Positions 12,295 through 39,032 of a stretch of 40,920 nucleotides of DNA are shown here, one piece after another (position 1 is the first letter of the stretch; each line of letters opens with the position of its first letter). A program made the translations under genes and the position numbers. The notes below the pieces were generated by a model that saw nothing but the letters and a program-made list of their open reading frames with translations, was not told where the DNA came from and made no database searches. The DNA comes from Candidatus Bathyarchaeota archaeon. Its GTDB lineage: Archaea > Thermoproteota > Bathyarchaeia > TCS64. The stretch covers positions 1 through 40,920 of the forward strand of contig JAGTQU010000015.1 in NCBI GenBank assembly GCA_018396695.1, in the 5' to 3' direction.

Positions 12295-12297
12295 ATT

Positions 12298-13389: not shown

Positions 13390-13451
13390 GCTTTCAACAC
13401 CAGTTTGATCCTTTCACAACAAATTTAGACTACAAAAATGTGAAATAGATT

Positions 13452-13471
13452 CCTTTAAACCTTTATTTAAA
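13452..13471 (+). promoter_or_regulatory. TATA-like promoter of bshB
   Basis: The AT run CCTTTAAACCTTTATTTAAA ends about 12 bases ahead of the bshB ATG; its first half (CTTTAAAC) is centred about 27 bases upstream, the spacing expected for a leaderless archaeal transcript. There is no clear Shine-Dalgarno site before the ATG. Call based on composition and spacing only. Confidence 0.4.
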
Positions 13472-13482
13472 ACATTCAATCG

Positions 13483-14163
13483 ATGGAGACAAGATTGGAA
13501 AAAAAGAGTATATTAATTGTTGCGGCTCATCCTGATGATGAGACATTTGGGTGTGGAGGAGCAATACTTCTACATACCGGAGAGGGGCATAAATGTAGTA
13601 TTTTAGCACTGACTTGCTCGAATGATGAAAGGAGAGAAGAGTTCAAAAAGGCGATGAATCTTCTAAGAGCTAATGAATTAGTTGTCTTAAATCACAAGAA
13701 AATCTTCTTTAACCATGGGCTAGTAGACCAGGTATCTGATTTCATAGTAAAGGTGAAGCCTGACATAGTGGTCACTCACATTCCGTGGGACTACCATCGA
13801 GAGCATAGGCTAACATATAGAGTTGTTAAAGAAGCTTTAGAATGGTCTGCCCACTCTACAAAGTATCGAGATCCTTGGAATCCCACTAGGCTCTTATTGA
13901 TGGAGGTAAATACTTTGATTCCATCTCCCCAAATAATCTTGGATGTTTCAAATGTTTTCGAGAAAAAAATGGAAGTGATCTATTGTTATTCTTCTCAACT
14001 AAAGAAATTTCCAGATGACTATTACGTGAAATTCAGTAGAGTTAAAGCAGAGTTAAGGGGGGTTCAAGGAGGTTGTAAGTATGGTGAAGCCTTCTATGAA
14101 GAAACATTGACGAAAAATAGTCCTTTTTTTAGCGTGAAGTCGTCTAAAAACCTCTTCAATTAA
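13483..14163 (+). CDS. bshB: BshB-like LmbE/PIG-L deacetylase
   Basis: A 226-residue LmbE/PIG-L zinc deacetylase, the family that removes the acetyl group from GlcNAc-malate in bacillithiol synthesis (and from related glycosides in mycothiol synthesis). The zinc and catalytic motif is AAHPDDETFGCGG (H16, D18, D19, E20) and the second metal/oxyanion block is VTHIPWDYHREHRL (H99, D103, H105, H108). Length fits BshB (~220-235). Assignment to BshB rather than another LmbE function rests on the adjacent bshA and bshC homologues. The ATG start is preceded by a TATA-like box at leaderless distance. The amidohydrolase downstream is on the same strand after 64 bases. Confidence 0.88.
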   Translation: METRLEKKSILIVAAHPDDETFGCGGAILLHTGEGHKCSILALTCSNDERREEFKKAMNLLRANELVVLNHKKIFFNHGLVDQVSDFIVKVKPDIVVTHIPWDYHREHRLTYRVVKEALEWSAHSTKYRDPWNPTRLLLMEVNTLIPSPQIILDVSNVFEKKMEVIYCYSSQLKKFPDDYYVKFSRVKAELRGVQGGCKYGEAFYEETLTKNSPFFSVKSSKNLFN

Positions 14164-14227: not shown

Positions 14228-15175
14228 ATGGCTTTTCATGGAATAGACGTGATCGACTTTCATGCTCACTTTCCCACCCAGAAGCCAGGTTATTGGGGTG
14301 CATGGAGGAGTCGAATGATAGAAAAGTATGGCGAGGAAAAACTGAACATTCTCATGGATCAATCAAAAACATATCGAGATATTTGGAGAAAAAAATGGCT
14401 TTTTGATCCTCCTGAAACTGAACCACATACAGACGAGCAGCAAGCTGCGAGATGGATTGAAGATATCGATAAAAAAAGGATTCAGCGTGTCAACTTTGTA
14501 ACTGGGGGAGGAAATGATAACCTTGCAAAAATTGTAATGCTGTATCCCGATAGATTTACTGGCTTCGCCCATCATGATATCTTCTCTGAAGATGCGCCTG
14601 CTGAGCTTGAGAGAGCTGTCAAAAAACTAAATCTACGCGGATTCAAAATGATAGCTTCTTCACTATACCGACCCATAGACGATGAGTTCCTCTATCCCTT
14701 CTGGGAAACCGCTGAAAGTCTGGAAATACCTATTCTAGTTCACTTTGGCGTCCTAGGAGGTGGAGGAGGACCCCCTTCAAATCATCATAATATGAATCCT
14801 CTTGTAATCGAGGAAGTTGCGAAGATGTTTCCAAAGCTTCGATTCGTTATACCTCACTTTGGAGCAGGGTATCTAAGAGAATTACTGTTACTATGCTGGT
14901 CGTGCCCAAATGTTTATGTTGACACTTCTGGCTCGAACCAATGGATGGCCTGGATGCCGTTTGATTTAGACCTTAAAGCGCTTTTTAGAAAGATGATGGA
15001 AACTATTGGTCCTGAGAGACTGATATTCGGAACCGATTCAAGCTATTTCCCGAGAGGCTTCAGCATCCAATATCTCGAAGACCAGTTAAAGATATGCCGC
15101 CAGATAGGGATCGATGAGAAAAGTATTGAAAAAATATTCCACGATAACGCTGCGAAACTTCTTAAATTAGAGTAA
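14228..15175 (+). CDS. Amidohydrolase family protein (Amidohydro_2 type)
   Basis: A 315-residue metal-dependent TIM-barrel hydrolase or decarboxylase of the Amidohydro_2 group (ACMSD and 2-pyrone-4,6-dicarboxylate hydrolase relatives). Metal-site features: DFHAH near the N-terminus (residues ~10-14), ILVHFG in the middle, FVIPHFGAG, and LIFGTDSSYFPRG carrying the conserved aspartate. The N-terminal 100 residues include a Trp- and Lys-rich insertion before the barrel continues. It lies just downstream of bshB and overlaps the end of the convergent DinB-like gene by 9 bases. A role in the thiol island, such as hydrolysis of a thiol adduct, would be speculation. Start ATG 14228. Confidence 0.88.
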   Translation: MAFHGIDVIDFHAHFPTQKPGYWGAWRSRMIEKYGEEKLNILMDQSKTYRDIWRKKWLFDPPETEPHTDEQQAARWIEDIDKKRIQRVNFVTGGGNDNLAKIVMLYPDRFTGFAHHDIFSEDAPAELERAVKKLNLRGFKMIASSLYRPIDDEFLYPFWETAESLEIPILVHFGVLGGGGGPPSNHHNMNPLVIEEVAKMFPKLRFVIPHFGAGYLRELLLLCWSCPNVYVDTSGSNQWMAWMPFDLDLKALFRKMMETIGPERLIFGTDSSYFPRGFSIQYLEDQLKICRQIGIDEKSIEKIFHDNAAKLLKLE

Positions 15176-15649
15176 GAAATTCGGGTTAGACTGTCTCATC
15201 CTGCCAATAGTTCCCCGTAAATATGCTATCTGCCCTTCATGATGAACAATTTCAGAAAGATACGCCATAAGTCCGAAACTTCTTTTTCGAGTCCCGCCCC
15301 AAAGCGGAATATCTACATCTAAATCTTCTTCCTTAAGTTGAGACAATCCTTGTAAGACTGTTTCTTTACCTTTTATCAAGTCATCAAGTATCTCAGATAA
15401 AGATATTTTGAGGCTTCCAACGTAGTCGTCAGGCCAATTAGAAGGTTTATAGCTTGGGTCCCCTTTAAACATTCTAGGGAATCCCACGTTCCACTGTTGC
15501 GATAGGTGTGTTAGAATCCATCGAATATTGTTAGCTTCAGGTACGGGTCTCCAGTCTATTTCTGATTCCTTCAAGTCCTTAATGGAGTTTTCAAATCGCC
15601 CAAAAAACGATTCCGAAAAGGTTTTAATTACCTCTAAACGTGTTGTCAT
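15167..15649 (-). CDS. DinB-superfamily protein (possible thiol S-transferase)
   Basis: A 160-residue four-helix-bundle protein of the DinB/YfiT superfamily. The expected metal site is a histidine in helix 2 plus an HxxxH in a later helix; here H48 (ILTHLSQQW) and H137 (IVHHEGQIAYLRG) are kept, while the first position of the HxxxH is E133. The GQIAYLRG tail after the histidine is typical. The superfamily includes BstA, which conjugates bacillithiol to electrophiles in Firmicutes, and other thiol-dependent enzymes, so its place next to bsh homologues is suggestive. It is convergent with the amidohydrolase gene and lies on the same strand as arsM, which is upstream of it. Exact reaction is unknown. 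Start ATG 15649. Confidence 0.85.
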   Translation of the reverse strand: MTTRLEVIKTFSESFFGRFENSIKDLKESEIDWRPVPEANNIRWILTHLSQQWNVGFPRMFKGDPSYKPSNWPDDYVGSLKISLSEILDDLIKGKETVLQGLSQLKEEDLDVDIPLWGGTRKRSFGLMAYLSEIVHHEGQIAYLRGTIGRMRQSNPNFLL

Positions 15650-25492: not shown

Positions 25493-26494
25493 ATGGAGGA
25501 GCTCGACGAGCCCCCGGATGAATCTCATAGGATCGGAAACACGATCCTAATTCGTTCTAGGAATCTTGAGTCTCTTTTAAGCTGTAAGAGACTCTATTTA
25601 AAATTCGAAGGAAGCAACCCGACAGGGACTCAAAAAGATAGAGCATCTTACGCATGTCTCAAGTTGGCTAAGGAGATGGGATATAGTTCCCTCGCTATCG
25701 CCACCTGCGGAAATTTTGGCGCATCTTTTGCCTACTTCGCTCCAAAATTCGGGGTTAAAGCCCATGTTTATATCCCAGCGAACTATAAAACTGAAAGAAT
25801 CCAAGAGATCGTTGATAATGGAAGCATTATACATCGCGTTCAAGGAACATACGAAGATGCTGTTTATCTCTCAGGAGTTGAAGCCAAAGATCTTGGGTGG
25901 TTTAATGCTAATCCAGGTGAAGAGCTTAATACGAGGGCTTCTATATTAGGATATTCGAAAATAGCTTATGAGATATATGAAAGTTTAGGATACATTCCGG
26001 ATGTTGTATCAGTTCCAGTCGGAAATGGAACAACGCTTGCTGGCGTTTATCACGGGTTTAAAACTTTATACGATGAAGGGATAGCAGACAAAATTCCAAG
26101 AATGATAGGCGTAAGTACGCCTTTAGGGAACCCTGTAGTGAAGAGTTTTCTAAAAGGGCTTAGAACTGTCGAGGATCTGTCTCCAACAGAGATCAAAGAG
26201 ACCTCTCTTAATGAACCTCTTGTCAGCTGGCACTCTTTCGATGGGAGCCTTGCCTTAGATGCGCTTTGGGAGAGCAATGGCTGGGCAACATATGTTTCGG
26301 ATGCCCAGATGGTGGAATATGCAAAGATGATTGCGAGAGAGGAGGGGATATCCACTCTTCCAGCTTCAGCATCTTCCTTAGCAGCTATCTCAAAGTATGT
26401 TAAATTGCATAAGGATAAGGAATCTAGCTACGTCGCCGTTTTAACAGCTGGAAACCCTAGATTCTTTAAACGTGAGGATAAAAAGCGAGGATAA
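25493..26494 (+). CDS. Threonine-synthase-like PLP enzyme (fold type II), first gene of a four-gene operon
   Basis: A 333-residue fold-type II PLP enzyme. The PLP lysine is K48 in EGSNPTGTQKDRASYA (threonine synthase: NPTGSFKDR), followed by IATCGNFGASFAYFAPKFG and the phosphate-binding SVPVGNGTTLAGVYHG. It is shorter than threonine synthase, lacks the N-terminal extension, and has Gln where that enzyme has Phe before the lysine. So a different beta-replacement or elimination on a serine-, threonine- or homoserine-type substrate is likely. The ATP-dependent genes that follow at 6 bases and by overlap suggest a pathway for an unusual amino acid. ATG 25493 with GAGG upstream. Reaction unknown. 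Confidence 0.85.
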   Translation: MEELDEPPDESHRIGNTILIRSRNLESLLSCKRLYLKFEGSNPTGTQKDRASYACLKLAKEMGYSSLAIATCGNFGASFAYFAPKFGVKAHVYIPANYKTERIQEIVDNGSIIHRVQGTYEDAVYLSGVEAKDLGWFNANPGEELNTRASILGYSKIAYEIYESLGYIPDVVSVPVGNGTTLAGVYHGFKTLYDEGIADKIPRMIGVSTPLGNPVVKSFLKGLRTVEDLSPTEIKETSLNEPLVSWHSFDGSLALDALWESNGWATYVSDAQMVEYAKMIAREEGISTLPASASSLAAISKYVKLHKDKESSYVAVLTAGNPRFFKREDKKRG

Positions 26495-26500
26495 TCTACA

Positions 26501-27859
26501 GTGTGCGGTTTAAAGATTTATTCAGAAGAGACTAGTAGAGGAATAAAAATAATTTTCAACGGATCGAGTTACGAGATCTCTTACCCAGATGACATTTGGA
26601 TTAGTTATCCGAAGGAGCTGAGAAGCGTGCTTTACGATAACCTCGTCTTTTCTCAGACTATACACCTTCCTCTAATGTTCAAGACTAATGAGATCGAATA
26701 CGATATTTCGCTCCCATACTTCTGGAGCAATTTTTTCCAGAATTTAGTGATGGATTTCCCAAGCTGTGCAGATGTGGATGTGACCTTGACTTCTGAGATG
26801 CTGAGACAATTCATGAATTTAAAGGTCAGTTTCAAAGATTATAAAATAAAGATACCTCAACATAGCGTAGAGGCTAGGGAAGACTCATCTATAGTTGCGC
26901 TTTCTTTCGGGAAAGATAGCCTTGCAACATGGGCTATTTGCAGAGAGATAGGTCTCAACCCGCAAGCCTGTTACATCGTAGAACCTTCGATGATTTACGA
27001 GGAAAAGCATAAGATGGTTCTCGCAGAGAAGTTTCATAAAGAGTTTGGAGTAAGGCTGCAAAAAATAGAGCATACTGCAGGTCTTCTAAGAGATGGGGTC
27101 CACCTTGGGGTTGGTAAGACTGAGCTTGGCTGGGGGTTGCAGAATACCGAATACGCGTTGATGGCTTTGCCTGTAGCTCACAAATTTACGGCCAAATATA
27201 TTCTCTTTGGGAATGAGCAGAGCTGCAGCGAATACTATTTTGACCGAGAAGGCTACATTTGTCATCCCTGCTATGATCAGTCTCATGTTTGGACCACGCA
27301 GATAGATTCTATGACTAGACAGATGAGCGGAGGCGGCGTTAGAACGATGAGTGTAATCGAGCCTTTAAACGATATCGCTGTCGTGTATCTTCTATACAAG
27401 CGTTATCCAGAGGTAGCTAAGTATCATATGTCATGCTTTGTAGATACTGAAGCAGGCAGGGATGAGAGATGGTGTCAGAACTGTGCAGTCTGTGCTAAAA
27501 TGTATTTGTTGATTGTAGCATCAGGCTTCGATCCTAAAGTCTCTGAGCTTAATAGAAACATGCTGTCTAAAGAGTTTATCGAATACTTCTCCTTATTCGG
27601 AGGGAAAAATGTTGAAACATACGCTTTAACGAAACGGGGACGAGATGAACAGCTGTTCGGGTTTTATCTAGCCTGGAAGAATGGAGATAGAAGCGACCTA
27701 ACGTTAATGTTCGCCGAGCAGTTCCTCGATGAGGCTAGGGAACGGGAAGATGAACTTTATGAAACCTTCTTCGGTCTACACGAGAGCATAACGATGCCCT
27801 CTGATATTAGGAATCGTGTTGTTAGCATCTATAAGGAGGCGCTTTCAGATGTCCCCTAA
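26501..27859 (+). CDS. MurL-like PP-loop ATP-pyrophosphatase with cysteine cluster
   Basis: A 452-residue protein of the adenine-nucleotide alpha-hydrolase group. The PP-loop is ALSFGKDSLATWAI (SFGKDS at 135-140), preceded by a beta-rich N-terminal domain. Further blocks are LFGNEQSCSEYYFD (237-248), YICHPC (C254, C257), and SCFVDTE with RWCQNCAVCAKMYLLI (C312, C325, C328, C331). The order (PP-loop, then a NE-x-S block, then a late SC ... WC-x2-C-x2-C-K motif) resembles MurL, the enzyme that epimerises the terminal L-Glu of UDP-MurNAc-L-Ala-L-Glu using ATP. I compare from memory, so treat this as similarity, not identity. GTG start 26501, 6 bases after the PLP gene. Activation of a carboxylate by adenylation is the expected chemistry. 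Confidence 0.72.
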   Translation: MCGLKIYSEETSRGIKIIFNGSSYEISYPDDIWISYPKELRSVLYDNLVFSQTIHLPLMFKTNEIEYDISLPYFWSNFFQNLVMDFPSCADVDVTLTSEMLRQFMNLKVSFKDYKIKIPQHSVEAREDSSIVALSFGKDSLATWAICREIGLNPQACYIVEPSMIYEEKHKMVLAEKFHKEFGVRLQKIEHTAGLLRDGVHLGVGKTELGWGLQNTEYALMALPVAHKFTAKYILFGNEQSCSEYYFDREGYICHPCYDQSHVWTTQIDSMTRQMSGGGVRTMSVIEPLNDIAVVYLLYKRYPEVAKYHMSCFVDTEAGRDERWCQNCAVCAKMYLLIVASGFDPKVSELNRNMLSKEFIEYFSLFGGKNVETYALTKRGRDEQLFGFYLAWKNGDRSDLTLMFAEQFLDEAREREDELYETFFGLHESITMPSDIRNRVVSIYKEALSDVP

Positions 27860-28874
27860 AGCAAAAAGGCGTCTTAGAGTTGCCTTGGTTTGCAATACAA
27901 GGCGCCAGGATGACGAGTTTCAAGTAGAATACGATCCTCCAGACACTATTGAGAAAGTCAAGCATGGGATCGAGAATGCGGGACATGAGTTCCTCTTCAT
28001 AGAGGCTGATGACACTGCCTATGAGAACCTTAAAAAAATTAGGCCAGACTTAGTCTTCAACCGTGCGGAGGGTATAAGAGGTGAGAGTAGAGAATCCCAC
28101 ATTCCAGCTTTTTGCGAGATGTTAGGGATACCGTATATAGGTTCAGGTATTTTAACGACGGCTGTATGCTTAGATAAGCCAGTTACAAAAATCATTTTAG
28201 AGTTTCATGGAATTAAAACCGCCCCGTTCCAAGTATTCTCAAGTATTGACGAACCTTTGAAGCCTCATATGAAGTTCCCCATCATCTTGAAGCCGAGCCA
28301 CGAGGGTTCAAGCATGGGGATAAACTGGGATAATGTTGTTCGAGATGAAGCTTCGATGAGACGGAAACTCGATGAGATGCTTCAAATATATAAGCAGCCC
28401 ATGCTGGCTGAAGCTTTTATTGATGGAAGAGAGTTTAGTGTCGGTGTTATCGGCAATTACGTTTTAGATGAGACACCGATAGTTTTACCAATATTCGAAA
28501 TGGATTTCACACGGTTACCTAAAGAGTTAGGAAACATCCTAAGCCAGAAAGTGAAGACTACATTCGACACGTATAAGAATTATATCTGTCCCGCTAAAAT
28601 CTCGGACGAGCTTCGCTCAAGGCTTGAAGAGATTACTCTCAGAGCTTACAGGGCTTTAAACTGTAAAGACTTTGCTCGGCTAGACTACAGGATGGATGAG
28701 AACGGAGAAATATTCTTTTTAGAGATCAATCCTCTTCCTGGAATAGACTGGGATCCTTCAAGAGAGGATGGGCTCAGTTTCTTCCCATTCATGATCTATG
28801 CCTACGGTAAAGACTTCGACTGGATGGTTGAGAAGCTTATAGAGACTGCTTCTAAACGTTATGGTTTAGTTTAG
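27849..28874 (+). CDS. D-alanine-D-alanine-ligase-like ATP-grasp enzyme
   Basis: A 341-residue ATP-grasp ligase. The N-terminal Ddl-type region has FNRAEGIRGESRESHIPAF then LGIPYIGSG; the ATP-grasp core has PIILKPSHEGSSMGI (K148), DGREFSVGVIG, and the metal/ATP site DYRMDENGEIFFLEINPLPG. It joins two amino acids or similar by an acyl phosphate. I chose ATG 27849 because GGAGG lies at 27834-27838 and homology starts there; the upstream in-frame start at 27816 would add 11 poorly matching residues. The start overlaps the end of the PP-loop gene by 11 bases, so translation is coupled. This archaeal context has no other peptidoglycan gene nearby, so D-Ala-D-Ala is unlikely to be the product. Confidence 0.88.
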   Translation: MSPKAKRRLRVALVCNTRRQDDEFQVEYDPPDTIEKVKHGIENAGHEFLFIEADDTAYENLKKIRPDLVFNRAEGIRGESRESHIPAFCEMLGIPYIGSGILTTAVCLDKPVTKIILEFHGIKTAPFQVFSSIDEPLKPHMKFPIILKPSHEGSSMGINWDNVVRDEASMRRKLDEMLQIYKQPMLAEAFIDGREFSVGVIGNYVLDETPIVLPIFEMDFTRLPKELGNILSQKVKTTFDTYKNYICPAKISDELRSRLEEITLRAYRALNCKDFARLDYRMDENGEIFFLEINPLPGIDWDPSREDGLSFFPFMIYAYGKDFDWMVEKLIETASKRYGLV

Positions 28875-28884
28875 GTGTGTAGAA

Positions 28885-29523
28885 TTGTTAAGCTATCTTA
28901 AGTATTCTCTTAAAAGTGTTCAAAAAATAGCTGAAGAGAAGCTGACAGAATCCTTCGGAAGACCGTTATACATCAAGATAAAAAACCATGTCGATGAAGC
29001 TACACTTTCGGCTATCCGAAAGATCGAGTCTTCAGCCTTTCGAGAAGAACTTAGATATACAAAAGAAGAGATCTTAGATAAGAGTCTGAATGATGGCTTC
29101 ATATTGATTCTGGTTTATGATTTAAACAAGCCAGTAGCCTTCCTCTTTGGCTACTCTGAACCATCCAACCCCTCAACTTTTTACCTCGACACCGTTGCCA
29201 CCCTTATCGAGGGCAAAGGATTAGGCTCATGTCTAATCAACCTAATCTTACTGCATTGCTACGAATCAGGATACGCTTTCATCACATTGAGAACCGAAGA
29301 AGAGGATGAGAAAGGTCGGAGATTGAGACGATTCTACGAGAAATTCGGGTTTAGAGTATACCCTTGCGATCCTAGAGAAGGCATAGCGATGATCAACGAA
29401 ATTGATAAACTGAACATCATTCTTTTACTGGATAAAATACTCCCTAGCGAAAAGAAAAATCGAAACGAAGTATTTGTTCAATCCTCATTTTACTCACCCA
29501 TCTATAGAGTCGTCGCAAAATAA
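28885..29523 (+). CDS. GNAT-family N-acetyltransferase
   Basis: A 212-residue GNAT protein. The acetyl-CoA pyrophosphate loop is IEGKGLGSCLI at 108-118 (R/Q-x-x-G-x-G/A pattern; here EGKGLG). Strand 4 is FYLDTVATL, and the C-terminal FYEKFGFRVYP is the usual last GNAT motif. The N-terminal ~35 residues are a helical extension, and ~50 residues follow the domain. It starts at TTG 28885, 10 bases after the ATP-grasp stop, so it is the last gene of the operon with the PLP, PP-loop and ATP-grasp enzymes and may acetylate their product. Substrate unknown. Confidence 0.85.
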   Translation: MLSYLKYSLKSVQKIAEEKLTESFGRPLYIKIKNHVDEATLSAIRKIESSAFREELRYTKEEILDKSLNDGFILILVYDLNKPVAFLFGYSEPSNPSTFYLDTVATLIEGKGLGSCLINLILLHCYESGYAFITLRTEEEDEKGRRLRRFYEKFGFRVYPCDPREGIAMINEIDKLNIILLLDKILPSEKKNRNEVFVQSSFYSPIYRVVAK

Positions 29524-29549: not shown

Positions 29550-29664
29550 AAACATGATTAAGCTACAATCTTTTTTTGATTAGCCAAAAAAGATAAGCTT
29601 CATTCTTCTTATTCACAAAAATCTTTTCAGTCATAGATAGACTAATTGTAATTTGAGGCTTCAA

Positions 29665-30057
29665 ATGAATGAGGTTGTAGTGACTTTAATCAGTGCACGA
29701 ACAATCGAACAGGGGATAGGATTAGAGATTGGGAAAACCTCTGAACAATATCAAAACAGCGTATCTGTTATTGAATTAAATCCCTCCGACTTCGAATCAC
29801 TTGAAATCTCCGAAGGAGAAACCGTAGAAGTAGAGTCGGATTATGGTTCAGTTCTCGTTAAGTGTCGGAGTTCTCAAGATGTTCCAAAAGGAAGGGCTTT
29901 TATGCCTTACGGTCCTTGGGCTAACAAGCTTTTCAGTTCAAGCACTCGCTGTTCAGGGATGCCTCAGCTGAAAGGTATCAAAGTCAGAGTTAAAGCAGCG
30001 AAAGGGTTGAAAATGCCATCGATAGTTGAACTTATCGATGAGTTAAGGAGGCTTTAA
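29665..30057 (+). CDS. fwdD: Formylmethanofuran dehydrogenase subunit D
   Basis: A 130-residue molybdopterin-dinucleotide-binding-domain protein matching FwdD/FmdD, which completes the tungsto- or molybdopterin site of the formate dehydrogenase half of the enzyme together with FwdB. Typical strands include VIELNPSDFESLEISEGETV and EVESDYGSVLVKCR; the AFMPYGPWAN motif is a family marker. I favour ATG 29665 (TGAGG about 7 bases upstream) over TTG 29653. One base separates it from fwdB, so the operon begins here. Whether W or Mo is used cannot be told. Confidence 0.93.
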   Translation: MNEVVVTLISARTIEQGIGLEIGKTSEQYQNSVSVIELNPSDFESLEISEGETVEVESDYGSVLVKCRSSQDVPKGRAFMPYGPWANKLFSSSTRCSGMPQLKGIKVRVKAAKGLKMPSIVELIDELRRL

Positions 30058-30058
30058 A

Positions 30059-31351
30059 GTGGAAGTGTTCTCTGACGTTGTCTGCCCTTTCTGTGGATGT
30101 CTGTGCGATGATCTTGAGATAACAGTTGAAAACAACAAGATTATTAAAACCAAAAATTCGTGTGCGATTTCGCTTTCAAAATTTATGCATCACGAAGATA
30201 ACAGGTTAAACTATCCAACGGTTGATGGAAGGAGAACAGATTTAGTTGAGGCGATTAACGAATCTGCCAAGATCCTAGCATCAGCTAAAAGACCCCTTAT
30301 ATATGGTTTAAGCTCAACCGAGTGTGAAGCAATAAACAGATCTATCGAGCTAGCCGAGCTTATAGGCGGAGTTATCGATAGTACCGCTTCAGTATGCCAT
30401 GGACCAACGATTATTACGGAACAGTCTATTGGTCTGATCAAAAGCACATTAGGCGAAATAAAGAATAGGGCAGATCTAATCATTTTCTGGGGGTCTAACC
30501 CGACAGAATCTCATCTCCGCCACTTGACCCGTTACTCTATGTTTCCAACAGGGTTGTTCACTCCTGAAGGTAGGAAGAATAGATTCATCGTTGCTGTAGA
30601 TGTCAGGAAGACTAAGCTAAGCAGGATAGTAGATCTCTTCCTTGAGATTGAGCCGAATAAAGACTTTGAATTAATCTCCGCTTTGAGAGCCATCGTAAGA
30701 GGAGTAAAAATAGAAGCAGAGCAAGTATCAGGCATCCCAATCAATATTTTAAAAGAGTTGGCTGAAAGGATGAAGAAAGCCAGATTCGGGGTGGTTTTCT
30801 ACGGGCTAGGGTTAACCCAGTCGGAGATGGGAGACATGAACGTTAACGCGGCTGTAGGTCTAGTCTCAGATTTGAATCATCATACTAAATTCGTGATCCT
30901 GCCTATGAGGGGCCACTTTAACGTGGCGGGCGCTAACACTGTAAGCTCATGGTTATCGGGTTACCCTTTTGCGATAGACTATAGTAGAGGGTATTCCAGA
31001 TACAATCCTGGAGAGTTTACCGCTGTAGATCTGCTTGAAAGGAAAGAGGCTGACGCTGCCCTTATAATTGCCTCTGATCCTGTTGCGCATTTTCCAGCCA
31101 GCGCGGTCGAGCATCTTACAAAGATACCTTTGATTACCATCGATCAAAAAGTGAATATGACTACTCTTCTCAGTAGAATCGTAATACCTGCGGCTACTGT
31201 TGGAATAGAGGCTGATGGAACAGCGTATAGGATGGATGGGATTCCTATTAGACTTAAGAAAATAATCGAACCTAGTGAAGGTATTCTGCCCGACTCCGAG
31301 ATATTGAAGATGATGATAGATAAGATTAGGGTTCTCAAAGGAGGCTACTAG
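30059..31351 (+). CDS. fwdB: Formylmethanofuran dehydrogenase subunit B (catalytic)
   Basis: A 430-residue molybdo/tungstopterin oxidoreductase subunit, the usual FwdB length. The N-terminal iron-sulfur motif is VCPFCGCLCDD (C9, C12, C16 among its cysteines) with C35. The metal-coordinating cysteine is C113 in SVCHGPT, encoded by TGC, so it is a Cys and not a Sec form. The late VILPMRGHFNVAGANT and IIASDPVAHFPASA segments are typical. FwdB reduces CO2 to formate with low-potential electrons (or runs in reverse). Unlike the bacterial FhcB, which lost this centre, all redox residues are kept, so a redox-active enzyme is expected. GTG start 30059, 1 base after fwdD. Confidence 0.95.
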   Translation: MEVFSDVVCPFCGCLCDDLEITVENNKIIKTKNSCAISLSKFMHHEDNRLNYPTVDGRRTDLVEAINESAKILASAKRPLIYGLSSTECEAINRSIELAELIGGVIDSTASVCHGPTIITEQSIGLIKSTLGEIKNRADLIIFWGSNPTESHLRHLTRYSMFPTGLFTPEGRKNRFIVAVDVRKTKLSRIVDLFLEIEPNKDFELISALRAIVRGVKIEAEQVSGIPINILKELAERMKKARFGVVFYGLGLTQSEMGDMNVNAAVGLVSDLNHHTKFVILPMRGHFNVAGANTVSSWLSGYPFAIDYSRGYSRYNPGEFTAVDLLERKEADAALIIASDPVAHFPASAVEHLTKIPLITIDQKVNMTTLLSRIVIPAATVGIEADGTAYRMDGIPIRLKKIIEPSEGILPDSEILKMMIDKIRVLKGGY

Positions 31352-31352
31352 A

Positions 31353-33065
31353 TTGGCAGATCTAATCATAAAGAATGGGTATGTATACGATCCGTTGAAT
31401 GGTGTTGATGGGGAAAAATACGAAATTCACATTAGCAAAGGGAAGATAGTCGACGAAGTTGACCGAAGAGACGCGAAGATCATAGACGCGTCAAATATGG
31501 TTGTTATGCCCGGTGGAGTAGATCTGCATAGCCACATAGCAGGGTCGAAGATTAACATAGGGAGGGCGATGAGGCCTGAAGACCATAGGAAAGACGTGAT
31601 GCCTAGAACAAGCCTTACCCGGGCAGGTGTTGGATATTCCTGCCCCTCGACGTTTTTCACAGGATACCGCTACGCTCAGATGGGTTACACGACAGTATTT
31701 GAACCTGCTATGCCTCCTTTGAGCGCAAGACACGTACACGAGGAGCTTAACGACATCCCGATCATTGATAAGGGGGCTTTCACTCTTATGGGGAACAACT
31801 ACTTCGTTTTGAAATACGTGAAATCGAAGGATCTGAACATGCTGAAAGGATTTATGGCATGGTTACTGAAAGCGACGCGAGGCTATGCAGTTAAAATAGT
31901 TAATCCAGGCGGTGTTGAAAACTGGAAATGGGGTAAAAATGTAGGAGGATTAGATGACTTAGTCTATAATTTCGAAGTAACCCCCCGAGAGATAATAACG
32001 TCACTGGCTAAGGTTAACGAAGAGTTAGGTCTACCACATACGATTCATCTACACTGCAATAACCTTGGTGTCCCAGGAAACTGGGAGACAACTATCGAGT
32101 CTATAAAATCAGTCGAATCAATTAAACCATCCGAGGGGAGGACACGCGTGGTCCATGTGGTTCATTGCCAGTTTAACGCTTTGGATGGTGAGAATTGGGT
32201 GAAGCTCAAATCTGGAGCATGCAAGATCGCTAAATATGTGAATGAGCACAATCATGTGACGATCGATCTAGGTCAAGTTATCTTCACAGATACTACTACT
32301 ATGACCGGCGATGGACCTTGGCAGTTTAGACTTCACAATCTAACAGGAAACAAGTGGGTGAATAGCGATGTGGAGATGGAGGCTGGAGCAGGGGTTGTCC
32401 CCTACACTTTTAGGAAAGAGAATCCCGCCAACGCTATACAATGGGCTATCGGTCTAGAACTTGCCTTAATGGTCCATGATCCATGGAAAATCTCCATGAC
32501 TACCGACCATCCTAATGGAGGACCTTTCCTTTATTATCCTAAGGTTATCTCTTGGCTGATGAGTAGGAAGGCCCGTACAGACACCATGCTTGAATTGAAC
32601 CGGTCATGTATCAAGAAGACTGGGCTTGCAGGGATTTATCGCGAGTATGATTTCAATGAAATCGCTATAATAACCCGTGCTGCTCCATCTATGCTTCTCG
32701 GATTAAAGAATAAGGGTCATCTAGGCGTAGGGGCCGATGGAGATGTATCTATTTTCAATGTTAACCCTACAGATTGGAAACCTTCAATGTATAGGGATGT
32801 TGAAAACGCTTTCTCTAGAGCCGCCTTTACAATCAAAAAGGGGGAGATTGTTACAAAAAACGGAGAGATTGCAGCTAATCCTCTGGGGAAGACCTTCTGG
32901 GTAGATGCTAAAGTCTCTGAAAAGATTGAATCAGATGTTCTAGAGGATCTACGATCAGAGTTTAAGAGGATCTATACAGTGAGTCTAAACAATTATCCTG
33001 TTCAGGATGCGTATCTTCCACTATCTGAGAGTGTTGAAATCCAAACAGGAAGGTGTTTATCATGA
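31353..33065 (+). CDS. fwdA: Formylmethanofuran dehydrogenase subunit A
   Basis: A 570-residue amidohydrolase-type subunit that condenses formate with methanofuran in a binuclear zinc centre. The ligands can be read: H59 and H61 (DLHSHIAG), the carboxylated lysine K181 (GYAVKIVNPGG), histidines in TIHLHCNN (H232/H234) and VVHVVHCQF (H268/H271), and D385 (MTTDHPNGG). This numbering agrees with the known archaeal FwdA within a few residues. TTG start 31353 lies one base after the fwdB stop. Its stop overlaps the ftr start in an ATGA. Together with FwdB and FwdC it forms the core complex in the cytoplasm. Confidence 0.96.
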   Translation: MADLIIKNGYVYDPLNGVDGEKYEIHISKGKIVDEVDRRDAKIIDASNMVVMPGGVDLHSHIAGSKINIGRAMRPEDHRKDVMPRTSLTRAGVGYSCPSTFFTGYRYAQMGYTTVFEPAMPPLSARHVHEELNDIPIIDKGAFTLMGNNYFVLKYVKSKDLNMLKGFMAWLLKATRGYAVKIVNPGGVENWKWGKNVGGLDDLVYNFEVTPREIITSLAKVNEELGLPHTIHLHCNNLGVPGNWETTIESIKSVESIKPSEGRTRVVHVVHCQFNALDGENWVKLKSGACKIAKYVNEHNHVTIDLGQVIFTDTTTMTGDGPWQFRLHNLTGNKWVNSDVEMEAGAGVVPYTFRKENPANAIQWAIGLELALMVHDPWKISMTTDHPNGGPFLYYPKVISWLMSRKARTDTMLELNRSCIKKTGLAGIYREYDFNEIAIITRAAPSMLLGLKNKGHLGVGADGDVSIFNVNPTDWKPSMYRDVENAFSRAAFTIKKGEIVTKNGEIAANPLGKTFWVDAKVSEKIESDVLEDLRSEFKRIYTVSLNNYPVQDAYLPLSESVEIQTGRCLS

Positions 33066-33988
33066 GTTTGAGTGTTAACGGGGTGGAGATTGAAGACACT
33101 TTCGCTGAAGCTTTTTCGATGTGGGGGAGCAGGCTTATAATAACAGCGAAAAACTCGAAATGGGCGAACATAGCGGCACTTTCGATGACTGGTTACGCTA
33201 CAAGCGTGATAATGTGCGACTGCGAAGCAGGAATAGAACGAGAGGTGTATGAGTCAGAAACCATGGATGGGAGACCTGGCGTATCTGTCATGATGTTTGG
33301 ATTTTCTAGAAAGACACTCGAAGAGCCTATGCTTAAACGTATAGGGCAATGTGTTCTTACATGTCCCTCAACGTCGGTTTATAATGGGCTTTCAAAAGAT
33401 CAGGCTGACGAGATGCTCGATATAGGCAAAGGTATCCGGTTTTTTGGAGACGGCTTTCAGGTTAAGATGAGGATGAGTGACGGCATATGTGAGCGGAAGA
33501 GGTTCTGGCGGATACCCGTCATGGAAGGAGAGTTTCTAATCGAAGAGAAGTTTGGCGCTAAAAAGGCTGTTGCCGGCGGAAACTTTCTAATCATGGGAGA
33601 CTCAAGTCAGACAGTACTTGAAGCCGGAGAAAAGGCGGTTGAAGCGATCCATAAGGTTCCAGGCGTTGTAACTCCCTTTCCGGGCGGTTTGTGTCGAAGC
33701 GGAAGCAAGGTAGGCTCAAAATATGCCTTTCTCAAAGCTTCCACGAATACCTCTTTCTGTCCTTCAATCAAAAACATCTTTCAATCGTCTAGAGTGCCTA
33801 AGAACGTAGATTCGATCCTTGAGATCGTGATAAACGGTTTAGACTTAGAGTCGGTGAAAACGGCTATGGCTGAAGGCATATCCGCGGCTGTCGAGGTTAA
33901 AGGAGTTAGAAAGATAACTGCCGTAAACTTTGCGGGGAAGCTAGGAAAATTCCAGATATGGTTAAAAGACTGTCTGGGAGGCCTCTAA
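33062..33988 (+). CDS. ftr: Formylmethanofuran:tetrahydromethanopterin formyltransferase
   Basis: A 308-residue Ftr enzyme that moves the formyl group from formylmethanofuran to N5 of tetrahydromethanopterin. Full-length matches include the N-terminal VNGVEIEDTFAEAF then MWGSRLIITA, the central GDGFQVKMR segment, VPGVVTPFPGGLCRSGSKVG and the NTSFCPS block. ATG 33062 is used, overlapping the fwdA TGA by four bases (ATGA) with GGAAGG upstream; the longer frame from 33053 would add only three residues. Its place between fwdA and fwdC links the two steps. The direction (reductive C1 fixation or oxidative) depends on the rest of the genome. Confidence 0.96.
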   Translation: MSLSVNGVEIEDTFAEAFSMWGSRLIITAKNSKWANIAALSMTGYATSVIMCDCEAGIEREVYESETMDGRPGVSVMMFGFSRKTLEEPMLKRIGQCVLTCPSTSVYNGLSKDQADEMLDIGKGIRFFGDGFQVKMRMSDGICERKRFWRIPVMEGEFLIEEKFGAKKAVAGGNFLIMGDSSQTVLEAGEKAVEAIHKVPGVVTPFPGGLCRSGSKVGSKYAFLKASTNTSFCPSIKNIFQSSRVPKNVDSILEIVINGLDLESVKTAMAEGISAAVEVKGVRKITAVNFAGKLGKFQIWLKDCLGGL

Positions 33989-33989
33989 A

Positions 33990-34826
33990 TTGGAAGTGTT
34001 TTTGAAGCCTAAAGTGAAGCCTCTTATACCTGTTGAAGCTGAAGTTTTGACGCCTGACAGGTTTGCAGGGATGAAGCTTTCAGAGATCGAGGGTCTCCCC
34101 GTATATGTAGGAAATAGAGTTGAAAAGCTGAGCGACTACTTTGAATTGGAGGGGAGCATCTCCGAGAAGCCAGCAGACCAACAAATAACGATCTTAGGAG
34201 ACGCGTCGCGAATAAAATACATAGGCTACGGAATGACGGCGGGCAGAATCTTGGTCGAGGGGGGTGCTGGAATGCATCTAGGGTCCCACATGTCTGGTGG
34301 AGAAATAGTCGTAAAGGGAAATGCGTCAGACTGGGCTGGGGCGGAAATGAGCGGTGGATTAATCAGTATTCTCGGCAATACAGGAGACTTACTGGGCTCA
34401 GCTTATCGAGGGAGCAGAGAGGGAATGACTGGCGGGTGCATAATCGTAAAGGGAAATGCCGGAATAGAGTCAGGGATATTCATGAGGAGAGGGACTATCG
34501 TTGTCGAAGGTGAGATAGGATCCTTTGCTGGGGCGCACATGAATGGTGGCGCAATTTTCATCTTCGGGAAAGCCTCAAGAGGTGTAGGAGCTGAGATGCG
34601 TGGAAACGGAAGCATGATAGTTTGCTTTAAAGGGGTCGACTCTCTACTGCCAACCTTCATCTACAACACAATATACAAACCAAACTTTATGAGAATATAT
34701 TTGAAATTTCTATTCAACACGCTGAAAATAGATAAAGCAGGAGAATATTTCGAGACCCCCTTCAAAAGGTATGTTGGAGATGCCGCTGTTGGCGGAGACG
34801 GTGAAATATTTATAGCAGAAACCTAA
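33990..34826 (+). CDS. fwdC: Formylmethanofuran dehydrogenase subunit C
   Basis: A 278-residue right-handed beta-helix subunit with the family's repeating glycine pattern: GMTAGRILVEGGAGMHLGSH, MSGGEIVVKGNASDWAGAE, MSGGLISILGNTGD, MTGGCIIVKGNAGIESGIF and MNGGAIFIFGKASRGVGAE, across residues ~80-215. The fold is shared with glutamate synthase C-terminal domains and structurally supports FwdA/FwdB. The C-terminal ~60 residues are a helical tail (FLFNTLKIDKAGEYFETPFK). The TTG start is one base after the ftr stop. It closes the fwd/ftr block, with the ligase 14 bases beyond. Confidence 0.94.
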   Translation: MEVFLKPKVKPLIPVEAEVLTPDRFAGMKLSEIEGLPVYVGNRVEKLSDYFELEGSISEKPADQQITILGDASRIKYIGYGMTAGRILVEGGAGMHLGSHMSGGEIVVKGNASDWAGAEMSGGLISILGNTGDLLGSAYRGSREGMTGGCIIVKGNAGIESGIFMRRGTIVVEGEIGSFAGAHMNGGAIFIFGKASRGVGAEMRGNGSMIVCFKGVDSLLPTFIYNTIYKPNFMRIYLKFLFNTLKIDKAGEYFETPFKRYVGDAAVGGDGEIFIAET

Positions 34827-34840
34827 ATGGGTAGACCCTC

Positions 34841-35725
34841 TTGAAGATTGGAATCTTGGCTTCAGAGAGAGGAGAATGGCATGTCCAACAACTACAAGAG
34901 AGTCTAAAGAGAAGAAGAGTTGAAAACTATGTTTTTCCTGCCGACAGGTTTCTTTCAAGAATAGAGTTAGAGCCAAGAGTATCGGTCAAGGGATACAGTC
35001 TCGAAGATTTTGACGCATTAATAGTCAGAAAGATACCTGGAGGAACTGCTGAACAAGTCTTCTATAGGATGGATGTACTTCACAGGCTTGAAAAAATGGG
35101 CGTCAAAATAGTGAATCCTCCTAAAGGAATCGAGAAAGCCGTCGATAAATATTATACATGTGCGATTCTCGAAGAAGTTGGAATAAAAACCCCTCGGACG
35201 ATAGTTACAGAAAGGTTCGATGAAGCGATTGCAGGATTTGAGGAGTTAGGAGGAGATGTAGTCGTTAAGCCCCTCTTCGGTTCTCTAGGCACAGGAATAG
35301 TTAGAATTAACGACATAGATGTTGCTCAAAGAGTTTTCAGAGCCTTAGAGATGGCTAATTGCGTTTATTACCTCCAAGAGTTTATTCCGCATGGTAACCA
35401 TGATATCAGAGTCTTCGTCATAGATGGAAGAGTGATTGCTTCAATGCTAAGGCTGGGTTCGGGATGGAAGACTAATATCTCAAAAGGGGCTGCAGCTAAA
35501 CTCTTTGAAGTAAATGAAACGCTCGCCAAGATGAGTATTGAGGCTACAGACTCTCTGGGGCTCTTCTACTCGGGAGTAGATATTCTAAAGTCAGAGCTGG
35601 ACGGCTCCTACTATGTTGTAGAGTTGAATAGCACTCCCGGTTGGCAGGGTCTCCAGACGGTTACTGATTTCAACATTGCTGAGGCACTAGTTAGTAATGT
35701 AATGCTTCAAATCTCGAAGGATTAG
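34841..35725 (+). CDS. RimK/MptN-like ATP-grasp glutamate ligase
   Basis: A 294-residue RimK-family ATP-grasp ligase. Visible parts: N-terminal KIGILASERGEWHVQQL and DALIVRKIPGG; ATP-grasp core VVVKPLFGSLGTGIVRI, YYLQEFIPHGNHDIRVFVID, LRLGSGWKTNISKGA, and the metal site YYVVELNSTPGWQGLQ (E-x-N). Its place directly after fwd/ftr makes MptN (tetrahydromethanopterin to tetrahydrosarcinapterin, adding alpha-linked glutamate) the best guess. CofF (coenzyme F420) and RimK/LysX-type ligases share all these motifs and cannot be excluded. TTG start 34841; three bases separate it from the next gene. Confidence 0.85.
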   Translation: MKIGILASERGEWHVQQLQESLKRRRVENYVFPADRFLSRIELEPRVSVKGYSLEDFDALIVRKIPGGTAEQVFYRMDVLHRLEKMGVKIVNPPKGIEKAVDKYYTCAILEEVGIKTPRTIVTERFDEAIAGFEELGGDVVVKPLFGSLGTGIVRINDIDVAQRVFRALEMANCVYYLQEFIPHGNHDIRVFVIDGRVIASMLRLGSGWKTNISKGAAAKLFEVNETLAKMSIEATDSLGLFYSGVDILKSELDGSYYVVELNSTPGWQGLQTVTDFNIAEALVSNVMLQISKD

Positions 35726-35727
35726 CG

Positions 35728-36738
35728 ATGGCGTACAACAATTTGAGAGATGGAGACGCCGTAATAACGCATCAAGGTTTTATCTTTTATGTTTTCGGTT
35801 ATGAGCATCCTGCTACGTCTTACCACGCCTTCTTAAAATATGTCCCAAAAGAATTTGCTTCAAGATTTAATATTGACTGGCTTGACATTGAGTGGTGTTT
35901 TAAGAATCGAATCATGAAACGGCCAAAAGAATTGTATAATCCTGAAAATTATCATAGTCTTTTAGAGACTTTTCTGAAAGAATATCCAATGTTCACATTC
36001 TTCTCTCCAGAGCTGAGTCGCTGGATCATTTCAGTATCTAAAAAGACGATATGTGAGGTTTATACGCCTTCGAAGCGGCTCTTACTATTATTGAGGAGAA
36101 GCCCTAAGACGAAGCTTGAAGAGAAGGCGATCGAGTTAATTAAACTTATTTCGGAGAAATCTAGGGTACCTATCGGCTTCTTCGGTGTTCATGGCTCCAT
36201 CAGCTTAGAAATGAGTAGGAAGGAAAGCGACATAGACATCTCCGTATACGGAGGAGACAATTATAGGCTGGTTAAGGAGGCTTTAGCAGGTTTAAGAGAA
36301 CAGAGCATGGTTGAACTTTCAACAGATACTTGGTATGATGCGAGGAGATTAAATAAAGGTATTTTCCAAGATACTAATTTCATTATCAATGCGACCAGAA
36401 GATTCTCCGAGATTAGGAGGATCAACTCAACGGTTAAACCTTTGGGGAAAGTCAAAGTTGAATGCAAGTGCATAAACTCCAAAGAAGGAGTTTTCAGACC
36501 AGCAATCTACCATGTTTCAGACTGTCATTCGATTAATGGAGACGTGTATGATCTTAGCAAGGTCTCTCAAGTCGTATCCATGGTTGGTTTATATAGAGAT
36601 GTGGTGAAGGATGGTGAAAGGATAATTGCGCAAGGAGTGTTAGAAGAGGTTCTAGATCAAGGAAACAAAGTCTTTAGGATCGTTGTAGGCTCTGGGTCTC
36701 GCGATGAAGGCATATTGATTAGTAAAGATTACACATGA
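35728..36738 (+). CDS. COG1665-like predicted nucleotidyltransferase, copy 1
   Basis: A 336-residue protein with a central nucleotidyltransferase signature FGVHGSISLEMSRKESDIDI (GS ... DxD, residues ~151-170). The N-terminal ~60 residues (FIFYVFGYEHPATSYHAFLK) and C-terminal OB-like segment (GVLEEVLDQGNKVFRIVVGS) recur in the gene at 38004, so the two are paralogues. The group matches what I know as COG1665, an archaeal set without known function; the GS-DxD core predicts NMP transfer to a hydroxyl of RNA, protein or a small molecule. It is co-oriented with and three bases after the MptN-like ligase. Its end overlaps the convergent TGS gene by 10 bases. Confidence 0.82.
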   Translation: MAYNNLRDGDAVITHQGFIFYVFGYEHPATSYHAFLKYVPKEFASRFNIDWLDIEWCFKNRIMKRPKELYNPENYHSLLETFLKEYPMFTFFSPELSRWIISVSKKTICEVYTPSKRLLLLLRRSPKTKLEEKAIELIKLISEKSRVPIGFFGVHGSISLEMSRKESDIDISVYGGDNYRLVKEALAGLREQSMVELSTDTWYDARRLNKGIFQDTNFIINATRRFSEIRRINSTVKPLGKVKVECKCINSKEGVFRPAIYHVSDCHSINGDVYDLSKVSQVVSMVGLYRDVVKDGERIIAQGVLEEVLDQGNKVFRIVVGSGSRDEGILISKDYT

Positions 36739-38003: not shown

Positions 38004-39032
38004 ATGAAGCCTAAGGATCGGGACTTCATAGAAACATTTGAAGGCTTAATGTTTTGCGTAGTCGGGTATCTTCATCCGCCGAACAGGTATACCTCTTATT
38101 TAAAGTATATCCCTGATCCGACTGGCAGATGGAGTAGAGGCTCAGAGAGATTCTCAAGGGTAATAGATTACTATCATGTAACTCAAGTTGAAAAAACATA
38201 CGAGTTCTTGAGGAGATACTATCCTATGTATCTATTCAATTGTCCTGTAAGAAATATCACCATATCCACCGTTCCTCATTCTAGAGTTAAAAGATACTAC
38301 GATCCTAGGACTCGGCTCAAATCTATTCTTGACGTAGGGGGACAGGATCCCCTCGAAAGGAAGCTAGCCGATTTTGTAGAGTTTCTTCACAGTATTTCAG
38401 GGGTAGATGCTAGCTTGTTCGGTATTACTGGATCGATTCTCATAGGCAACCATAACCCCAAGTTCTCTGACATTGATCTAAATGTGTACGGGAGAGAAGC
38501 CTCTCTCCGGCTTAAAGAGTCTTTGATTGAACAAGCTAGAACAGAAAGTAAAATGAAGCGATTAAGTGAAGAGAAAAAAAAGGATTGGATCGCCAAAAGA
38601 TCGAAATGGTTAGGCATAACCATGGAAGATATGTCTATGATTGCTGAGAGAAGGTGGAATCAAGGCATCTTCGACGAAACCTACTTTTCCATCCATCCTA
38701 TTAGAACAGATGACGAGATAAGAGAGAACTATAGTGAGCTCATCTATCATCAACTCGGGGAAGTGACTGGGAAAGCTATTATTAAGGACGCTAGGGAAGC
38801 GATGTTTCTCCCATCCACTTATAAACTCTCAAACTCGGAGGTAAATCGTGGAAAGAATATCAAGGTAAATGAACTCTCATCTTATGAGGGGGTTTTTAGC
38901 GATGTTTTTCTAGAAGGGGAGCAGATAGAGTTTAAAGGTATTTTAGAAGAAGTCTCAGGGAAACAAAACTTTTATAGAGTCGTTGTAGGTGGGGCAGGTT
39001 CGAAAAACAGCTATATTAGGCTCCTAAAGTAG
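38004..39032 (+). CDS. COG1665-like predicted nucleotidyltransferase, copy 2
   Basis: A 342-residue paralogue of the gene at 35728. The nucleotidyltransferase core is FGITGSILIGNHNPKFSDID then LNVYG (GS ... DxD, residues ~138-161). The N-terminal VVGYLHPPNRYTSYLKYIPD and the C-terminal FKGILEEVSGKQNFYRVVVG match the other copy. The insert between core and C-terminal part is longer and strongly charged (SEEKKKDWIAKRSKWLG). Function is unknown. ATG 38004 follows an AT-rich leader. It lies across from the TGS gene, so the TGS gene is flanked on both sides by related genes. Confidence 0.82.
   Translation: MKPKDRDFIETFEGLMFCVVGYLHPPNRYTSYLKYIPDPTGRWSRGSERFSRVIDYYHVTQVEKTYEFLRRYYPMYLFNCPVRNITISTVPHSRVKRYYDPRTRLKSILDVGGQDPLERKLADFVEFLHSISGVDASLFGITGSILIGNHNPKFSDIDLNVYGREASLRLKESLIEQARTESKMKRLSEEKKKDWIAKRSKWLGITMEDMSMIAERRWNQGIFDETYFSIHPIRTDDEIRENYSELIYHQLGEVTGKAIIKDAREAMFLPSTYKLSNSEVNRGKNIKVNELSSYEGVFSDVFLEGEQIEFKGILEEVSGKQNFYRVVVGGAGSKNSYIRLLK

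Follow-up and report, generated by a model that had tools for sequence, protein, structure and literature searches.

A conserved four-gene archaeal operon predicted to direct the synthesis of a small N-acetylated peptide

The window analyzed here is a 40,920-nucleotide (nt) stretch of DNA from a Candidatus Bathyarchaeota archaeon, whose genome (G000) is 1.9 Mb in size and 96% complete. At positions 25493–29523, the window carries a quartet of genes that encode a pyridoxal phosphate (PLP) enzyme (PALP), a PP-loop ATPase, an ATP-grasp ligase that resembles D-alanine–D-alanine ligase (Ddl), and a GNAT acetyltransferase. With a probability of roughly 0.55, these four genes make up an operon dedicated to the biosynthesis of a small N-acetylated peptide with a non-proteinogenic and possibly D-configured residue; the product would most likely be a dipeptide, or else a conjugate of an amino acid with another amine. 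This reading is based on the identical distribution of the PP-loop and Ddl-like genes with PALP always adjacent, the fusion of Ddl and GNAT in some relatives, the persistence of PALP and the PP-loop gene in a second operon type, and the pairing of the ligase with KamA-family enzymes. It also draws on the conserved catalytic residues of the ligase, the resemblance of the GNAT fold to N-alpha-acetyltransferases, and the nature of the genes near the quartet in one genus. The features of the locus are as follows.

25493..26494, + strand: PALP, a fold-type II PLP enzyme of 333 residues (PF00291, E 6e-57; PRK06381, 394 bits)
26501..27859, + strand: PP-loop ATPase, MurL/QueC-like, of 452 residues (MurL model, E 1e-6, 27 bits; AlphaFold2 (AF2) pLDDT 91)
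27833..27839, + strand: Shine-Dalgarno sequence AAGGAGG of the Ddl-like gene, within the 3′ end of the PP-loop gene, with a 9-nt spacer to ATG 27849
27849..28874, + strand: Ddl-like ATP-grasp ligase of 341 residues (PF07478, Dala_Dala_lig_C, E 2e-30)
28885..29523, + strand: GNAT acetyltransferase of 212 residues (PF00583, Acetyltransf_1, E 7e-6; AF2 pLDDT 88)

All four open reading frames (ORFs) are intact and lie on the plus strand, with intergenic distances of +6, −11, and +10 nt. The longest possible Ddl-like ORF begins at GTG 27816. Judged from the sequence, the true start is ATG 27849, because a perfect AAGGAGG lies 9 nt upstream and the relatives begin at this position; the 11-base overlap given in the original prediction is therefore correct. 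That prediction had described a single coupled operon with spacings of 6 bases, an 11-base overlap, and 10 bases. The spacings agree with the coordinates and the ribosome-binding site, and the operon itself is borne out by the spacing together with conservation among relatives.

All 32 genomes of the window's order were searched for the PP-loop and Ddl-like genes, and orthologues of both were found in the same 13. In each of these carriers the two genes are adjacent and PALP adjoins them, and in 12 of the 13 the GNAT gene also adjoins its partners, directly after Ddl. The exception, L050, has a PP-loop ORF interrupted by TAG, and no intact GNAT gene was found there. In three genomes of genus g2 (L045, 542 residues; L023; L046), Ddl and GNAT form a single ORF. 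A scan of genome contigs with one protein as the query found nothing; with an alignment as the query, 38 loci were found. The quartet is also present in Hermodarchaeota and in another Bathyarchaeota lineage, at approximately 50% identity. The orientation of PALP is co-directional in the window and in g2, divergent in genera g166, g168, g169, and g170, and convergent in L069 (Hermodarchaeota), L070, and L095; given these three orientations, the linkage is not mere frozen synteny. In the window, the upstream neighbor of the quartet is a divergently oriented Lhr-type helicase gene, and at two loci (L047, L048) the quartet sits in other surroundings, apart from this helicase. The gene-tree distances of the four genes correlate with one another (r 0.75–0.94), which shows only co-inheritance, because those of the Lhr helicase correlate equally well (0.88–0.92). 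Across a phylum-level sample of 398 genomes, the PP-loop family occurs in 21 and the PRK06381-type PALP in 22; 18 genomes have both, and 3 and 4, respectively, have one only (Fisher p=1.4e-24, a nominal value since the genomes are related). The linkage of the quartet is more than chance, and its four genes are co-inherited in archaea that are only distantly related. A gene-neighborhood search had been proposed in the original prediction as a check, with an arrangement conserved in no relative to count against it, and the neighborhood is conserved in relatives.

The components of the quartet also recur in other combinations. Elsewhere in Thermoproteota, a sister operon (L028–L032, L164) has the order PALP, DgcN-like DUF1611, and diverged PP-loop, with DUF1611 in place of the ligase. 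A GNAT gene lies alongside in L027, L028, L031, and L032, and the PP-loop gene was not seen in L164. None of the 32 genomes of the window's order has DUF1611. The Ddl-like ligase subfamily, found in 65 of the 398 phylum-level genomes, in turn has other partners: a lysine-2,3-aminomutase-family (KamA-family) gene lies beside it in L156, L160, and L161, together with a GNAT gene in L156. A DPANN locus (L074) contains a KamA–Ddl fusion, two further Ddl-like genes, a GNAT gene, and a PP-loop gene, and at a locus from the candidate phyla radiation (CPR; L081), genes of the PP-loop, Ddl-like, and KamA-like types form one cluster. The ligase therefore appears to be a module that is combined with different amino-acid-forming front ends, and the modules appear interchangeable. 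The pairing of KamA-family and Ddl-like proteins suggests that peptides with beta-amino acids exist in archaea and in CPR/DPANN cells. The chemistry first proposed for the window, in which an unusual amino acid is made, activated at the expense of ATP, ligated, and acetylated, is consistent with these swaps of the front end (PALP or KamA type) and of the coupling module (Ddl-like or DUF1611). Further arrangements of the ligase subfamily were observed: its ATP-grasp domain is fused to an M20 peptidase in L155 (4882–7113) and the ligase to a methyltransferase in L157 (5309–7390) and L163 (5405–7327). In two Roizmanbacteria loci, a thioredoxin-reductase-like gene (L084, 13479–14450; L092, 13617–14588) directly follows a PP-loop gene and two Ddl-like genes.

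The first gene of the quartet has a database name that was not mentioned in the original prediction: PALP scores 394 bits against NCBIfam PRK06381, 'threonine synthase', above the cut-off of 266. It is highly improbable that PALP is on this account an ordinary threonine synthase with the other three genes unrelated to it. PALPs from the two operon types group in a single clade (support 0.998) apart from the ThrC-like enzymes of G000, and share the motifs [ST]CGN[FY]G, N[AG]N[PA]G, and EPL, whereas the ThrC segment NPWRIEGQK is replaced. G000 encodes a separate ThrC next to ThrB (L130) and two more ThrC-like proteins. In addition, no homoserine dehydrogenase was found in eight genomes of family f37 that have the PRK06381 PALP (six of genus g75, which are 95–99% complete, and G242 and G280), while the same search was positive in 14 of 14 controls. 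Two caveats apply to this argument: homoserine dehydrogenase is present in seven further genomes that carry the PRK06381 PALP, and the enzyme (PF00742) was also not detected in G000, G348, or G412, despite the adjacent ThrB and ThrC genes of G000. Because G000 has ThrC beside ThrB and the eight PALP-bearing genomes lack homoserine dehydrogenase, PALP is probably not a threonine synthase and the pipeline name is probably wrong. With the replaced segment and the tight linkage to the PP-loop gene also taken into account, the housekeeping role was rejected. PALP is instead predicted to act on an unusual amino acid, either forming or modifying it.

The third protein is a predicted amino-acid or dipeptide ligase. 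It matched Ddl structures by sequence and, like the Ddl/Van enzymes, belongs to the ATP-grasp family and retains the ATP, Mg, and catalytic residues. The equivalents of DdlB Lys97, Lys144, Ser150, Glu187, Lys215, Arg255, Asp257, Glu270, Asn272, Gly276, and Ser281 are invariant in 12 of 12 ligases compared; in the Yersinia reference of this comparison, the first 25 residues are approximate, and the Glu15 position is not reliably aligned. Unlike true Ddl enzymes, the protein falls below all Ddl cut-offs (173.6 versus 243 bits; 153.2 versus 245.65), Tyr216 is replaced by Thr or Ser in all 12 ligases and Leu282 by Phe, and there is no murein. The fourth protein, GNAT, is predicted to N-acetylate the product. 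The structural neighbors of its AF2 model (pLDDT 88) include the N-alpha-acetyltransferases NatD, RimI, Ard1, and Naa50, and the modeled fold is compatible with alpha-amino acetylation, though not specific for it; its score against the RimI family is 13.7 bits, below the cut-off of 86.4. A precedent for joining these two activities is N-acetylglutaminylglutamine amide (NAGGN) synthetase, in which an ATP-grasp domain is fused to a GNAT domain and an N-acetylated dipeptide is made. The g2 fusion resembles this arrangement, whereas the ATP-grasp subfamily is a different one and the quartet has no asparagine-synthetase-like enzyme. The NAGGN synthetase model (TIGR03103) was absent among the 25 matches listed for the Ddl-like protein and among the GNAT matches. 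A second precedent, the synthesis of N-epsilon-acetyl-beta-lysine by KamA (AblA) and the GNAT enzyme AblB, likewise combines an unusual amino acid with GNAT acetylation, and KamA-family enzymes partner the window's ligase subfamily in other genomes. The window differs in having PALP instead of KamA, plus a ligase and a PP-loop enzyme.

Pfam gave no match for the PP-loop protein, which in both sequence and length is nearest to MurL of the Xanthomonas MurD2/MurL system. Unlike that system, the quartet has neither MurD2 nor a UDP-MurNAc pathway, its PP-loop gene being partnered instead with a Ddl-like ligase, PALP, and GNAT. The PP-loop protein carries an SFGKDS P-loop and a Cys4 motif, C312-x12-C325-x2-C328-x2-C331. 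The pattern S-C-x(11-14)-C-x2-C-x2-C is present in 52 of 54 family ORFs, with a spacing of 12 in 48. A profile search of the Protein Data Bank (PDB) with the family found no sequence relative, and a tblastn search of plasmids with the protein found none. MurL needs ATP and releases AMP; in the proposed mechanism, it adenylates the alpha-carboxylate and then inverts the stereocenter (PMC5808125, PMC8788868). The same ATP-dependent activation of a terminal carboxylate is conceivable here. From its sequence, the PP-loop protein is predicted to be a carboxylate-adenylating epimerase or an amide former. A diverged second PP-loop paralogue was observed in several of the same genomes (L047, 3845–5287; L077; L080; L082; L085; L087; L089). 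It adjoins a Ddl-like gene only in L047, where it is near a tryptophanase gene, and in L026/L077 it lies upstream of an inositol-phosphate-synthase-like gene.

Based on these families, from which the substrates, step order, stereochemistry, product, and role of the product are all inferred, a four-step pathway can be proposed. PALP would turn an amino acid of the Ser, Thr, Asp, or Cys type into an unusual one by beta- or gamma-substitution, elimination, or racemization. The Ddl-like enzyme would then activate one carboxylate as an acyl phosphate and link it to a second amino acid at the amino group of the latter. Next, the PP-loop enzyme would adenylate the free terminal carboxylate and invert the terminal stereocenter, as proposed for MurL, or alternatively amidate the carboxylate, and GNAT would acetylate the free amino terminus. 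In genus g170, an AIG2/gamma-glutamyl-cyclotransferase-like gene overlaps the GNAT gene by 4 nt (L049) or follows it (L051, L054). Near the quartet in L051 and L055 of this genus are genes for an alanine racemase, an amidohydrolase, a GATase-like protein, and an enolase-superfamily protein with weak similarity to DgcA and L-Ala-D/L-Glu epimerase. These neighbors hint at D-residues or gamma-glutamyl bonds in the product. A more tentative proposal is that uncultivated Bathyarchaeota, Hermodarchaeota, and other Thermoproteota, together with some DPANN archaea and CPR bacteria, may share a modular, undescribed pathway for N-acetylated small peptides, in which a PALP or KamA front end, Ddl-like or DUF1611 coupling, and MurL-like inversion would give D-amino-acid metabolites without murein.

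Several observations weigh against the quartet as an operon for an N-acetylated peptide. The PRK06381 PALP occurs without a detected PP-loop gene in G023 and G047, the PP-loop family occurs without PALP in G032 and G056, and the two are on separate contigs in G242 and G280. The D-amino-acid and gamma-glutamyl genes of g170 were not found beside the window's quartet. Moreover, the similarity to MurL (NF041275) is weak, at 27.4 bits versus a cut-off of 700 (E 1e-6). Finally, among solved structures, the closest folds resemble QueC and not an epimerase: the top Foldseek matches of the AF2 model (pLDDT 91) are QatC, QueC, and Cap9, with a TMt of 0.72 for QueC. The PP-loop enzyme may therefore be QueC-like, adenylating a carboxylate and combining it with ammonia or an amine into an amide or nitrile, such that the operon would yield an amidated or capped amino-acid metabolite with no epimerization. 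The C-x12-C-x2-C-x2-C motif, which is invariant in the aligned family, resembles the known QueC zinc site. This alternative is unlikely, as the best sequence profile and the protein length point to MurL, the QueC family gave no match in Pfam or NCBIfam, the protein has approximately 110 extra N-terminal and 100 extra C-terminal residues, and the PDB profile search offered no sequence relative. By analogy, carboxylate adenylation would be the common denominator of the MurL-like and QueC-like roles.

The remaining alternatives concern the purpose of the operon as a whole. Salvage or detoxification of D-amino acids, with PALP as a racemase or dehydratase and GNAT as a D-amino-acid N-acetyltransferase, is suggested by the DgcN/DgcA pathway for D-glutamate, since the DUF1611 protein that the sister operon encodes between its PALP and PP-loop genes is DgcN-like and the g170 enolase-superfamily protein has weak similarity to DgcA and the epimerase. 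The DUF1611 proteins score 154–181 bits versus a DgcN cut-off of 480, and none occurs in the window's order. This explanation is improbable: the catalytic set of the Ddl-like ligase is intact, and such an enzyme is biosynthetic and consumes ATP; salvage is unlikely to spend ATP at two steps; and the operon has no conserved transporter, oxidase, or deaminase.

A murein-like or other cell-surface peptide pathway would account for MurL-like and Ddl-like proteins side by side, and a MurG-superfamily (MJ1255-like) glycosyltransferase is encoded 3.4 kb upstream, with synteny in some relatives. It is nevertheless quite improbable, because this glycosyltransferase is below both the MurG and MJ1255 cut-offs and tracks the Lhr helicase, not the quartet. 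Murein was rejected on the basis that FolC is the only Mur_ligase_M gene product in G000 and that such genes were not detected in three quartet-bearing g2 genomes, in agreement with the earlier expectation that classical peptidoglycan would not be involved.

A small antimetabolite of the D-cycloserine or rhizocticin type, with GNAT for self-protection, is very unlikely. The D-cycloserine (dcs) route has a comparable set of roles, namely a cysteine-synthase-like PALP, an epimerase, ATP-grasp enzymes, and an acetyltransferase, but the conserved unit has no hydroxylase, arginase, or phosphonate gene, its ligase matched Ddl structures by sequence, and a basic metabolic role would explain the wide spread among uncultivated archaea at least equally well. 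About as improbable as the threonine synthase role is a low-molecular-weight thiol (a glutathione analogue), toward which the Roizmanbacteria thioredoxin-reductase-like genes and the g170 gamma-glutamyl-cyclotransferase-like gene might point; neither is near the window's quartet, and the role was rejected since a predicted bacillithiol pathway in the same window makes another thiol pathway seem superfluous.

This bacillithiol pathway is predicted at 10552–14163 and 15167–15649 of the window. BshA scores 407 bits, above its cut-off, and the BshC-like protein (62 bits) and BshB1-like deacetylase (88 bits) are both below theirs; the region also holds a DinB/mycothiol-S-transferase-like gene. According to a 2020 review, archaeal BshA/BshC homologues are mostly from Asgard archaea, and the thiol was not detected (PMC7278568). 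Downstream of the quartet, after a 129-nt gap, one run of genes (29653–35725) encodes formylmethanofuran dehydrogenase subunits, Ftr, and an MptN-like ATP-grasp protein (283 bits, below the cut-off of 350), which by sequence is a tetrahydromethanopterin C1 branch. A tie between the quartet and these genes was considered and rejected, given the gap and the fact that the fwd genes of the nearest relatives are not beside the quartet. Further downstream, proteins of 336 and 342 residues with weak nucleotidyltransferase similarity (35728–36738 and 38004–39032) flank a TGS-domain GTPase.

A literature search for the gene combination, archaeal MurL, DUF1611, aminomutase with ATP-grasp, and a Bathyarchaeota D-alanine ligase returned no description, with subscription papers mostly outside its coverage; the statement that no named system has this combination thus holds for the searchable literature. 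In that literature the combination is undescribed, and its overall kind, an ATP-grasp-based peptide or amide biosynthesis cluster, is known. With four short genes whose products look soluble, the pathway lends itself to direct testing in a laboratory host. If the quartet does make an N-acetylated peptide, a function would be provided for a PP-loop family that has no Pfam model, the orphan 'D-alanine ligases' of murein-free archaea would be explained, and the 'threonine synthase' label would be corrected across a whole PALP subfamily. The product would then be a metabolite common to sediment archaea and Asgard relatives, with a related form in DPANN and CPR cells.

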